Positions 2,436-11,056 of a stretch of DNA of 20,414 nucleotides are shown one piece after another. The position numbers and the translations under genes are program-made. The stretch is from a virus. The DNA is taken from positions 1-20,414 of the IMG/VR virus record IMGVR_UViG_3300017756_000152, one strand, 5' to 3'. Every line of letters starts with the position of its first letter. Position 1 is the first letter of the stretch. The notes below the pieces were generated by a model. The model searched no databases. It saw only the letters and a list, made by a program, of their open reading frames with translations, and was not told the origin of the DNA.

Positions 2436-2456
2436 TGCATTTAGTGCATAACGGGA

Positions 2457-2503
2457 TTGCAATCTTAACTATTATATGTTATAACTAAGTATGATATAAC
2501 TAT
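2457..2503 (+). promoter_or_regulatory. Promoter region before the DUF1127-lysis cluster
   Basis: TTGCAA at 2457-2462, 17 bases, then TATAACTA from 2480 makes a sigma70-like promoter. A second TATAAC follows at 2495-2500. It lies inside the 14-base word TATGATATAACTAT (2490-2503), which is repeated exactly at 12236-12249 in the capsid promoter. The shared word suggests a common -10 form used by this phage. The promoter is well placed for the genes from 2551 onward. Confidence 0.55.
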
Positions 2504-2511
2504 CTCTGTAA

Positions 2512-2530
2512 GGGTAAGTAACTCTTACCT
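2512..2530 (+). promoter_or_regulatory. Leader hairpin upstream of the DUF1127 gene
   Basis: GGTAAG at 2513-2518 and CTTACC at 2524-2529 form a perfect six-pair stem around TAACT, extendable by one G-T pair. There is no T-run after it, so it is not a terminator. It lies at or just after the expected transcription start and ends about 20 bases before the start codon at 2551, close upstream of the AGGAGA ribosome-binding site at 2539-2544. It could stabilise the 5' end of the message or influence translation. Confidence 0.4.
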
Positions 2531-2550
2531 ACATATATAGGAGATAGAAT

Positions 2551-2691
2551 ATGTTAAAACGTATGTTTAAAAAGTTACAACAGAATCAGCAACGCAGAGC
2601 CGACTATTGGATTCTTATGAATCTAAGTGATAAGGAACTGCATGACATGGGGATCAGTAGAGGTGAAGTCAGGCAAAAAGTCTACGGTTAA
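2551..2691 (+). CDS. DUF1127 (YjiS-like) microprotein (46 aa)
   Basis: The start ATG 2551 follows a strong AGGAGA site. The product has a basic N-terminus with Gln/Arg (MFKKLQQNQQRR) and then LMNLSDKELHDMGISRGEV, which matches the DUF1127 pattern of Leu-Ser-Asp-x-x-Leu-x-Asp-[IM]-Gly-[IL]-x-Arg-x-[DE]-[IV]-Arg. DUF1127 proteins are abundant in alphaproteobacteria. Characterised members such as CcaF1 of Rhodobacter sphaeroides bind RNA and affect sRNA maturation and RNA turnover. Here it is first in a transcription unit with its own promoter, followed by small basic genes and the lysis cassette. A role in tuning host or phage RNA is inference. The family call itself is strong. Confidence 0.8.
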   Translation: MLKRMFKKLQQNQQRRADYWILMNLSDKELHDMGISRGEVRQKVYG

Positions 2692-8473: not shown

Positions 8474-8612
8474 TTACTTAGATGAACTGATAGCACAGCA
8501 ACATCGTTCTATGGAACAAACAGATAATGATAAAGTTATGTATAGGTCACAGGGCGCTATATATCAGTTACGTAGATTAAAACTATTACGAGATGAGGTA
8601 TTAAAATCATGA
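8403..8612 (+). CDS. Small charged helical protein after the portal (69 aa)
   Basis: ATG 8403 (or GTG 8397, two codons earlier) begins inside the portal tail, with AAGGA at 8388-8392. The product MNKEHLNKLKGLVNNHQQW followed by FSNYLDELIAQQHRSMEQ and a second helix YQLRRLKLLRDEVLK is predicted by eye to be mostly alpha-helical. It is rich in Gln, Leu and charged residues. The portal overlap is about 70 bases. The stop overlaps the next gene's start (ATGA). No enzyme motif is visible. It might assist head assembly, given its position between portal and the large modular protein, but that is inference. Confidence 0.65.
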   Translation: MNKEHLNKLKGLVNNHQQWEQFSNYLDELIAQQHRSMEQTDNDKVMYRSQGAIYQLRRLKLLRDEVLKS

Positions 8613-11056
8613 AAGATCAAATGGAACTTTTTGAAGATGGCGGTCTTAAAGATGAGGGCGGCATGGTAGATGAAGAATCTGGTAATGAAGTTCCTGTTGG
8701 TGGAACACGTAAAGGTGTTCGTGATGATATACCTGCAATGGTAAGTGAAGGTGAGTTTGTATTTCCTGAAGATGTAGTAAGATACATTGGCCTAGATAAA
8801 CTTATGCAGCTACGACAAAAGGCAAAAGTAGGATTAAAACGTATGGAAGATATGGGCCAAATGGGTAATAGCGATGAAGCTACCATACCTGACGATATGC
8901 CTATGGATTCACCCGATCTTGTTATTGTAGCTGGTGAAGCACCTAAAGAGATGGCAGAGGGTGGGGCGGTTGTAGATGGAGTTGCTCAAACTGCTGCACC
9001 CCGCAGACTTACACCTGAAATACAAAGACCCGAAAGAAAACAGGTAAGTTTTAAACAGCTTATGGGCAAGAATGCTGTAGAGTTTAAGCAGTATCGCAAT
9101 GCTCAAGGAGCAAGTCTTTTGATTCCTTTTGTGGGAGGTAATCCTATATACCCAATTCCTTCTGGTTATACTTTGTACGATGCAAGCACAGATACTGCCG
9201 ATCCTACAAGCCCTCAAAATCAAGCTGATGCTATTGCTACTGAAGTGTCTACAGCTATTAATAGAGCTACTGGTAATGATAGAGATGATGATGGACCTGC
9301 ATCAGTACCTCAAAGTGCTTTTCAAAAAGCTGGCAGTTGGGATATGGATACATCAGGTAAAGATGGCAAGGCTTTACAGATGTGGATTGATGAGGCTACT
9401 AAATTTACAAATGGAACATCTACGGTTGTAACAGGTGTAGCCGCTGCATTTGGTTTAGGTTTACCTGTAGCTGCAATGACATCTTTGGAAAAAAAACGAA
9501 TACTAAAGGGTATTGATGCTAAAATTGCACAGGCCAGAAAAACAGATATGGCAGGTCAGGTAGCTGCATTAGAGGCTATTAAAAAAGATTTAACAGAAAA
9601 AACTACAGGTATAAGTTCTGCTTTGTCTAGTTTAACTACTACAGTATCTGACCTATTTAATTTTTCAAATGAACAAAAAGAAACAGCAGTTAATACTGCT
9701 AGTAGAGTAACTGAACTAGAAAATACTGTAGCTGAACAACCTACTGCTGCTTTTACTCCTGATGTAGCTAAAGATACTGCTACACCTGCTGTAGATGAAG
9801 GCTTTCAACAAGATCAAGCTAGTCAAACTCTTGCTGCTTTTACTCCTACTGTATCGGGTCCAGCAGCAGCAGAGGCTCAATTTGGTGCTCCATTAGGAGA
9901 TCCTTTAGGTGGAACTCCTCCTGCTGTAGATGAACTAGTGTTTACTCCAAGTTTACCTGTACCACCAGTAAGTGGCTATGATGAAATTAAAGCAGATCCT
10001 CGTCTATTAGAATCAGCAGGTGTGCCTTTTCAGTATCCTGCACCTACACCTGTAACTACTCCTGCACCTCAACCTACAACACCTGTAGGTGCTAGTTCTT
10101 TTGGTGAGGCACTAACTCAACAAGCGCCTAGTTTAATAGCAGAAGACATACAACAAACAGATGCGTATAAACTAAGATATGGTGATACTGATGCTCAGAT
10201 GCAAAGTTTAATGCCGCCCGTTGTATTGCCAAGTGCACCAGTAGTAACTGGTTATGATGATGCACCTATTAAATCTTTAACTGATACACGGCAAGAAAAA
10301 GAAAAGGCAGAAATTGCAGCAGCAGCAAAGGCAGCAAAAGAAAAAGCTGAAAAAGAAGAAGCAGCAAGGGAAGCAGCAATAGCGGCAGCAGCAAAAGCAG
10401 CGGCAGATAAAGCGGCAGCGGAAAAGGCTGCAGAAGAAAAGGCTGAAAGAGAAAGAGTTGCAGCAGCAGCAAAAGCAGCTAGAGAAAAAGCTGAAAGTGA
10501 CGCTAGAGAAGCGGCTGCAGCAAAGGCAGCAAAAGAAAAAGCTGAGAAAGAAGAAGCAGCAAGGGAGGCAGCAATAGCGGCAGCAGCAAAACGTGACAGA
10601 GATGATGACACTAATAGTATTTTTAATAAAACATTAGAAACAACAGGTACGGCAACTAGAACAGGAAGTGCTGCACCTAGTACATCTATTAGACCTACAG
10701 CTAGACCAACTACTTCTTCAAGTGACGATAGTAGTAGCGATGATAGTAGCAGTGATAGTAGTTGTGTTATAGCAACTCACGGCGTAGCAACAGGAGGCTT
10801 TAGTCTTTTAGATAAAGCAAAAGCAGAGCTGTGGTGTGAGAGAACATATCACAATAAATGGTACGGTGAAGCATTTAGACGTGGCTACCGCTATGCAGGA
10901 AACACGGCTATTAAAAAAGGCAATGCAGCAAAACACTATCAAGAGTTTAAAGACTTTGTATTATACGGTAGGGGTCTTAAAAAGGATTGGAAGTCTGCAG
11001 TAAATTATTATAAACGAACTATTCAGTTTTTTGTAACTGGACTAATTGTAAGATAG
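8609..11056 (+). CDS. Large modular virion-type protein with Ala-rich coil and Cys/His C-terminal domain (815 aa)
   Basis: Residues 1-90 carry FEDGGLKDEGGMVDEESG, RDDIPAMVSEGEFVFPEDVV and RYIGLDKLMQLRQKAK, a conserved N-terminal module that I recall from many marine phage proteins. A second Gly-Gly motif MAEGGAVVDG follows near 113. The centre is Thr/Pro/Ala-rich and includes a Gly/Ala-rich hydrophobic stretch near 276-293. Residues 560-665 are an Ala/Glu/Lys coiled coil holding a 25-residue duplication (572-596 and 637-661). A Ser/Asp linker (about 701-718) leads to a distinct C-terminal domain with Cys719, His724, Cys743 and His748, then aromatic and basic residues. The gene lies between portal and scaffold, so a structural or ejected internal protein is likely. 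The exact function is unknown. Confidence 0.75.
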   Translation: MKDQMELFEDGGLKDEGGMVDEESGNEVPVGGTRKGVRDDIPAMVSEGEFVFPEDVVRYIGLDKLMQLRQKAKVGLKRMEDMGQMGNSDEATIPDDMPMDSPDLVIVAGEAPKEMAEGGAVVDGVAQTAAPRRLTPEIQRPERKQVSFKQLMGKNAVEFKQYRNAQGASLLIPFVGGNPIYPIPSGYTLYDASTDTADPTSPQNQADAIATEVSTAINRATGNDRDDDGPASVPQSAFQKAGSWDMDTSGKDGKALQMWIDEATKFTNGTSTVVTGVAAAFGLGLPVAAMTSLEKKRILKGIDAKIAQARKTDMAGQVAALEAIKKDLTEKTTGISSALSSLTTTVSDLFNFSNEQKETAVNTASRVTELENTVAEQPTAAFTPDVAKDTATPAVDEGFQQDQASQTLAAFTPTVSGPAAAEAQFGAPLGDPLGGTPPAVDELVFTPSLPVPPVSGYDEIKADPRLLESAGVPFQYPAPTPVTTPAPQPTTPVGASSFGEALTQQAPSLIAEDIQQTDAYKLRYGDTDAQMQSLMPPVVLPSAPVVTGYDDAPIKSLTDTRQEKEKAEIAAAAKAAKEKAEKEEAAREAAIAAAAKAAADKAAAEKAAEEKAERERVAAAAKAAREKAESDAREAAAAKAAKEKAEKEEAAREAAIAAAAKRDRDDDTNSIFNKTLETTGTATRTGSAAPSTSIRPTARPTTSSSDDSSSDDSSSDSSCVIATHGVATGGFSLLDKAKAELWCERTYHNKWYGEAFRRGYRYAGNTAIKKGNAAKHYQEFKDFVLYGRGLKKDWKSAVNYYKRTIQFFVTGLIVR
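10322..10396 (+). repeat. 75-bp in-gene duplication, copy 1
   Basis: Codes residues 572-596 of the 815-residue protein (Ala/Lys/Glu coil). It matches 10517-10591 with only two base differences, both silent, 195 bases apart. This points to a recent duplication in a coiled-coil segment. Confidence 0.8.
10517..10591 (+). repeat. 75-bp in-gene duplication, copy 2
   Basis: Second copy of 10322-10396, in the same reading frame, coding residues 637-661. The spacing of 65 codons keeps the frame, so the duplication lengthens the coil without breaking the gene. Confidence 0.8.

Follow-up and report, generated by a model that had tools for sequence, protein, structure and literature searches.

A DUF1127 gene of HMO-2011-type roseophages and the leader hairpin predicted to hide its Shine-Dalgarno sequence

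Identification of a DUF1127 gene in an HMO-2011-type podovirus

We analysed a virus record of 20,414 bases, referred to here as the window. Its TerL is 88.6% identical to that of Roseobacter phage CRP-345 and 82.9% identical to that of Puniceispirillum phage HMO-2011, both over the full length, and the HMO-2011-like terminase and gene order are both present. On the basis of these terminase identities, the window is assigned to the HMO-2011-type podoviruses, as a fragment of one such genome. The HMO-2011-type roseophages, which infect Roseobacter bacteria, form a viral family that is highly abundant in the sea. Elsewhere in the window, positions 8609-11056 carry an ORF of 815 aa, weakly TolA-like, in which a long stretch is rich in Ala, Lys and Glu.

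The features of the locus are collected in Table 1. The preliminary description had placed the product close to the DUF1127 consensus, and this was borne out by the Pfam search: the ORF matched PF06568 with 31.0 bits (curated cut-off, 23.3; E 2e-7) over profile positions 3-37 of 37, and was the sole match to this profile in the whole record. The gene is syntenic among the relatives, occupying a constant position on the late strand, and its dN/dS is low (median pairwise value of 0.12 among close relatives; pooled pN/pS of 0.19). Since relatives were found in at least 129 loci, together with this low dN/dS and synteny, we regard the ORF, on sequence grounds, as a genuine DUF1127 gene under purifying selection and not as a chance ORF.

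Table 1. Positions of the DUF1127 gene, its upstream elements and related genes of other phages
Feature	Position	Strand	Remarks
Conserved element GCATAACGGGATTGCA (consensus CATAACGGGGTTGCA)	2446..2461	+	Single copy in window
P1 -35 TTGCAA	2457-2462	+	17 nt upstream of P1 -10
P1 -10-like TATAAC	2480..2485	+	Element +28; missing in some relatives
P2 extended -10 TGATATAAC	2492..2500	+	Predicted start site near 2507
Anti-Shine-Dalgarno arm ACTATCTCT	2499..2507	+	Ends at predicted P2 start site
Inner hairpin GGGTAAG-TAACT-CTTACCT	2512..2530	+	Fold
Shine-Dalgarno AGGAGATAG	2539..2547	+	Paired with arm in read-through RNA (computed)
DUF1127 gene	2551..2691	+	ATG, 46 aa; PF06568, dN/dS, composition, structure model
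DUF1127 gene between mazG and ribonucleotide reductase	L199, L200:1474-1671; L201, L202, L203, L205:1495-1674		Cobavirinae, CRP-6, Autographiviridae

The window protein contains five Arg, five Lys and five Asp plus Glu, with a net charge of +5; the phage DUF1127 proteins are basic in general (mean net charge of +4.3 for 73 proteins). Arg accounts for 10.9% of its residues (5/46) and for 10.6% on average over the 73 proteins, against the 14% stated for DUF1127. A DIGL-type motif is represented by DMGIS in the window protein and by DIG[IV] in most relatives, and D32, G34 and R37 are invariant. One long helix (residues 2-23) and two short ones (27-32 and 37-45) were predicted, in a model built from the window and the IMG/VR loci (mean pLDDT of 86). 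A fold search with this model gave no meaningful PDB match (best E of 5.1), a PDB sequence search gave only weak SAM-domain and ribosomal L19 matches at E 0.06 or worse, and SAM-like Pfam matches remained below the cut-off. In the CRP-345/CRP-1 branch (L006:3842-4108, L011:2954-3232, L068 and L079), the C terminus of the protein is extended by a conserved tail with SWRQYIYSKLGWELHKANHA at its end, which possibly represents an extra motif.

Distribution of the gene among HMO-2011-type phages

In all 11 HMO-2011-type Roseobacter isolates found, exactly one copy of DUF1127 lies upstream of the terminase. No DUF1127 was detected in the entire records of HMO-2011 itself (a SAR116 phage), the pelagiphages HTVC033P and HTVC115P and the Rhizobium relative RHph_N3_19, nor in the whole records of the uncultured members ctYwJ313 and L062. 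In IMG/VR, which was searched with a profile built from eleven phage DUF1127 proteins, the gene lies 2.2-4.2 kb before TerL in the relatives that reach far enough upstream, L062 being the one clear exception; a few contigs with just 2.0-3.4 kb upstream of TerL were left out of this judgement. A scan with the protein alignment confirmed at least 527 stretches as DUF1127 among the 600 matches listed.

A 2019 paper on RCA phages reported three genes exclusive to CRP-1, CRP-2 and CRP-3 in comparison with HMO-2011, one of which was 'ORF47 in CRP-3', of unknown function (PMC6918029). This ORF47 (CRP3_gp47) is the DUF1127 orthologue, and it and its orthologues occupy the same position as the window gene. 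In the papers searched, we found no description of its DUF1127 identity or of its leader; the word DUF is absent from the main text of a later group paper on these phages, and the papers among those searched that name both 'DUF1127' and 'phage' included, as judged by titles, none on phage-borne DUF1127. The expectation that so short a gene would be missed by most gene callers did not hold for HMO-2011-type roseophages, 10 of the 11 records of which include it as a CDS (CRP-13 alone does not) and one of which names it DUF1127 (CRP-603 gp69 carries this annotation), but it did hold for SIO1, a phage of another family, in which the DUF1127 gene is unannotated.

The gene might also be regarded as moron-type cargo, expressed from a prophage and unrelated to lytic timing, as it is host-like and has promoter-like sites of its own, most members of the group carry an integrase, and CRP-3 integrates. 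This explanation is weakened by the distribution of the integrase, since CRP-9 and CRP-13 have DUF1127 without a PF00589 integrase and HMO-2011 shows the reverse, and the fixed place of the gene in the late strand also speaks against it; we consider it quite improbable.

DUF1127 genes in unrelated phages

A host DUF1127 query also found the domain in unrelated phages, among them other roseophages and rhizobial phages, all with alphaproteobacterial hosts. Matches to PF06568 above the cut-off were obtained for the Cobavirinae SIO1, P12053L, ICBM1 and CRP-5, for CRP-6, CRP-7, Atu_ph07 (two genes) and phiM12, and for CRP-118 of the Autographiviridae, while the genes of CRP-4 and CRP-403 rest on tblastn evidence. 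In the roseophages with a Pfam match, CRP-7 excepted, DUF1127 lies immediately after mazG and ahead of the ribonucleotide reductase, with one additional gene between DUF1127 and the reductase in CRP-6. The upstream sequences of the HMO-2011-type gene described below were not found in the 60 bases inspected upstream of the DUF1127 genes of these other roseophages. Two further observations concern single phages: the two DUF1127 genes of Atu_ph07, a jumbo phage of Agrobacterium, differ from each other (L204:1498-1641 and L208:795-944), and in CRP-7, of another lineage, a long hairpin is predicted immediately before the DUF1127 Shine-Dalgarno (L206:700-830).

A tree of phage and host DUF1127 proteins, the latter sampled through one pattern scan of GTDB genomes, comprised 56 columns and had long branches and many unresolved forks. 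Given such poor resolution for so short a domain, we claim neither a single origin nor a separate phage group.

Promoter-like sites upstream of the gene

An own promoter had been proposed for the gene, and promoter-like sites are indeed present, namely the P1 -35/-10 pair and the extended -10 of P2. Within the element CATAACGGGGTTGCA, CGG(G) lies 42-45 nt ahead of the P2 -10, TA[TA]AA[CT], in 129/129 loci (as CAGGG in one). Among 81 distinct cassettes, P2 has TAWAAY in all and the preceding TGn in 53; exact TATAAC at P1, 17 nt from TTGCA, is likewise found in 53 of them. In one clade, TAAAAC replaces TATAAC at P2, with P1 intact. A single copy of the complete cassette is present in the window, ahead of DUF1127, and CRP-345 has none elsewhere in its 46.7 kb outside this region. 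It was not found in phages without DUF1127, for which the best scores were at the level of the shuffled background, and a DNA-level search with it gave CRP-1 as the sole match (63 bp at 84%).

The P2 -10 fits the last six positions of GCTANAWC, the alphaproteobacterial RpoD -10 consensus derived from Caulobacter (PMC8144410). TATAAC has no T at position -7, where the E. coli consensus has one, and for this reason a sigma-70 scan did not list it. DUF1127 is likely to be the head of a transcription unit, although genes of the same orientation lie upstream.

A leader hairpin predicted to pair with the Shine-Dalgarno

The leader hairpin and the strong ribosome site of the preliminary description were both recovered. 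The leader between 2490 and 2560 folds at -20.5 kcal/mol (z -4.3), and none of 200 shuffles was as good. A point absent from that description is that the hairpin is predicted to sequester the DUF1127 Shine-Dalgarno. The 3' end of the arm lies at +6 to +9 from the P2 -10 in 76/81 distinct cassettes, corresponding to the place where the P2 transcript would start; in CRP-235 and CRP-738, the arm is wholly upstream of the -10 and not across it. In nearly all leaders, the stretch between the P2 -10 and approximately the predicted start site is complementary to the Shine-Dalgarno. An Rfam scan gave nothing at the gathering score, the only matches being chance ones to snoRNAs.

The arm and the Shine-Dalgarno co-vary between lineages, across a loop of about 5-31 nt: the pairs are CTATCTC/GAGATAG in the window, GTCTCCG/CGGAGAC in CRP-13, CTACTCC/GGAGTAG in CRP-9 and a large clade, ATTATCTC/GAGATAAT in CRP-3, AATTACCT/AGGTAATT in CRP-212, GTATAACTCC/GGAGTTATAC in L065 and AAACTCTCCTTAG/CTAAGGAGAGTTT in CRP-235. 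Pair counting was replaced by an arm swap test because the MAFFT leader alignment misplaces the Shine-Dalgarno in some rows. With 18 leaders chosen to represent different Shine-Dalgarno arms, the mean was -13.2 kcal/mol for native pairs and -9.4 kcal/mol for swapped pairs, and 0/20000 permutations reached the native mean; these statistics ignore phylogeny, but relatedness alone creates no complementarity. The same result was obtained with 12 representatives of an enlarged set. Such pairing averaged z +0.2 for 63 other genes of these phages with a Shine-Dalgarno, in comparison with -2.1 and -3.0 for the DUF1127 genes of the window and CRP-345, respectively. An inverted repeat overlapping a promoter might instead be a DNA operator, forming no RNA hairpin. 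The arms, however, vary by lineage yet stay complementary, their spacing is variable, and one of them is always the Shine-Dalgarno; the operator was rejected on the varying but still complementary arms, and we regard it as highly improbable.

Over the 81 distinct leaders, the mean computed probability that the Shine-Dalgarno is unpaired was 0.06 in read-through RNA, 0.07 in P1 RNA and 0.72 in P2 RNA, and the Shine-Dalgarno was freer in P2 than in read-through RNA in every leader; the lower pairing in P2 RNA arises partly by construction, as it depends on where the start site is placed. For the window-type leader, computed on the identical leader of L019, the values were 0.12 in read-through RNA and 0.85 from P2.

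A proposed promoter-nested gate and its likeness to T4 gene e

The geometry and pairing potential seen in the sequence suggest a start site, a silencing and a timing of the following kind. The P2 -10 region doubles as the 5' strand of the predicted hairpin, the 3' strand of which is the DUF1127 Shine-Dalgarno. RNA entering from the upstream genes or from P1 would fold, locking the Shine-Dalgarno and preventing translation, while RNA from P2 would begin inside the loop, without the 5' strand, and would be well translated.

In T4 gene e, the ribosome site of the long early transcripts is buried in a hairpin, and late promoters located in the 5' strand give transcripts that lack this strand and are translated (PMC3014915). 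The likeness extends to soc, 49 and I-TevI, since in all four T4 genes the Shine-Dalgarno lies in a helix of long upstream transcripts, as computed here; in gene e, the promoter is located in the DNA of the helix 5' strand, a geometry that is predicted here for 76/81 cassettes. The systems differ in that occlusion is proven in T4 and predicted here, and in that the T4 late promoter is TATAAATA and the sites here are RpoD-like (TATAAC, TAAAAC or TATAAT). T4 is also a different kind of phage, and its gene e product is a lysozyme, while the product here is regulator-like.

The RNA from P1, if P1 is active, would be locked to no evident purpose, which counts against the gate, as do the arms of CRP-235 and CRP-738 and the missing -7 T of TATAAC. 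In an alternative reading, the hairpin acts in the normal P1 transcript, either as a 5' stabilizing stem or as a switch of translation that a protein (perhaps DUF1127 itself), temperature or a host factor would open. The 17-nt spacing of the P1 -35/-10 pair, the presence of the whole hairpin in P1 RNA, and the clade with TAAAAC at P2 but an intact P1 are all in its favour. Nevertheless, TATAAC is missing at P1 in 28/81 distinct cassettes while the P2 motif is kept throughout, and the overlap of the arm with the P2 -10 and discriminator would be left unexplained; we consider the alternative unlikely. Pausing at the second -10, as at lambda pR', was dropped, several lineages being without the first promoter.

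Possible targets of the protein

Host DUF1127 proteins, namely CcaF1 of Rhodobacter sphaeroides, SDP1-3 of Agrobacterium and YjiS of E. coli and Salmonella, share the domain with the phage proteins and are likewise short and basic, a D-[IM]-G-[IL] motif coming after the helical region. Unlike them, the proteins studied here are phage-encoded and less Arg-rich, and are specified by a late-strand operon with a promoter-nested leader. The motif CCTCCTCC, which we take to be that of the CcsR-type sRNAs beside the CcaF1 gene, was not found in the window, nor was there an Rfam match. Published findings on host DUF1127 proteins conflict: CcaF1 of Rhodobacter is RNA-binding and works with RNase E (PMC10253847), while YjiS of Salmonella did not associate with RNA. 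By analogy, we infer as the first choice that the phage protein may bind RNA and alter RNase E-dependent turnover as CcaF1 does. This ranking is a matter of judgement: CcaF1 comes from the bacterial family of the hosts, and a lower phosphate uptake is of no obvious benefit to a phage.

The second choice, also by analogy, is that the protein would bind a sensor kinase such as PhoR, mimicking host DUF1127 and resetting phosphate or related signalling. Binding to PhoR is known for the DUF1127 proteins of Agrobacterium and E. coli, and the Agrobacterium mutant is complemented by DUF1127 of Sinorhizobium, Rhodobacter (including CcaF1) and E. coli (PMC12501420). The adjoining mazG and ribonucleotide reductase genes in other roseophages, which form a nucleotide-metabolism operon, also agree with such a role. 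On the other hand, host DUF1127 lowers phosphate uptake, an effect hardly wanted by a replicating phage, and the gene lies in the late strand of HMO-2011-type roseophages; we consider this role somewhat unlikely.

Taken as a whole, our reading is that DUF1127 is kept as a host-directed regulator that would be tightly timed by the promoter-nested hairpin, the protein being CcaF1-like as the first choice; we assign it a probability of about 0.5. On a broader scale, we tentatively suggest that several unrelated roseophage lineages acquired DUF1127 as a regulator for taking over the host and that, in the abundant HMO-2011-type group, it may be silenced in read-through RNA and, once released, act late and at a set time on host RNA turnover or sensor kinases. 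This analysis supplies a family identity for a gene that belongs to the only three by which the Roseobacter members were reported to differ from HMO-2011, and the same domain is seen in other, unrelated roseophages. It also offers, outside T4, a simple switch in which a promoter would lie inside an anti-Shine-Dalgarno hairpin, and the phage gene may serve as an independent system for asking whether the DUF1127 domain binds RNA or kinases.
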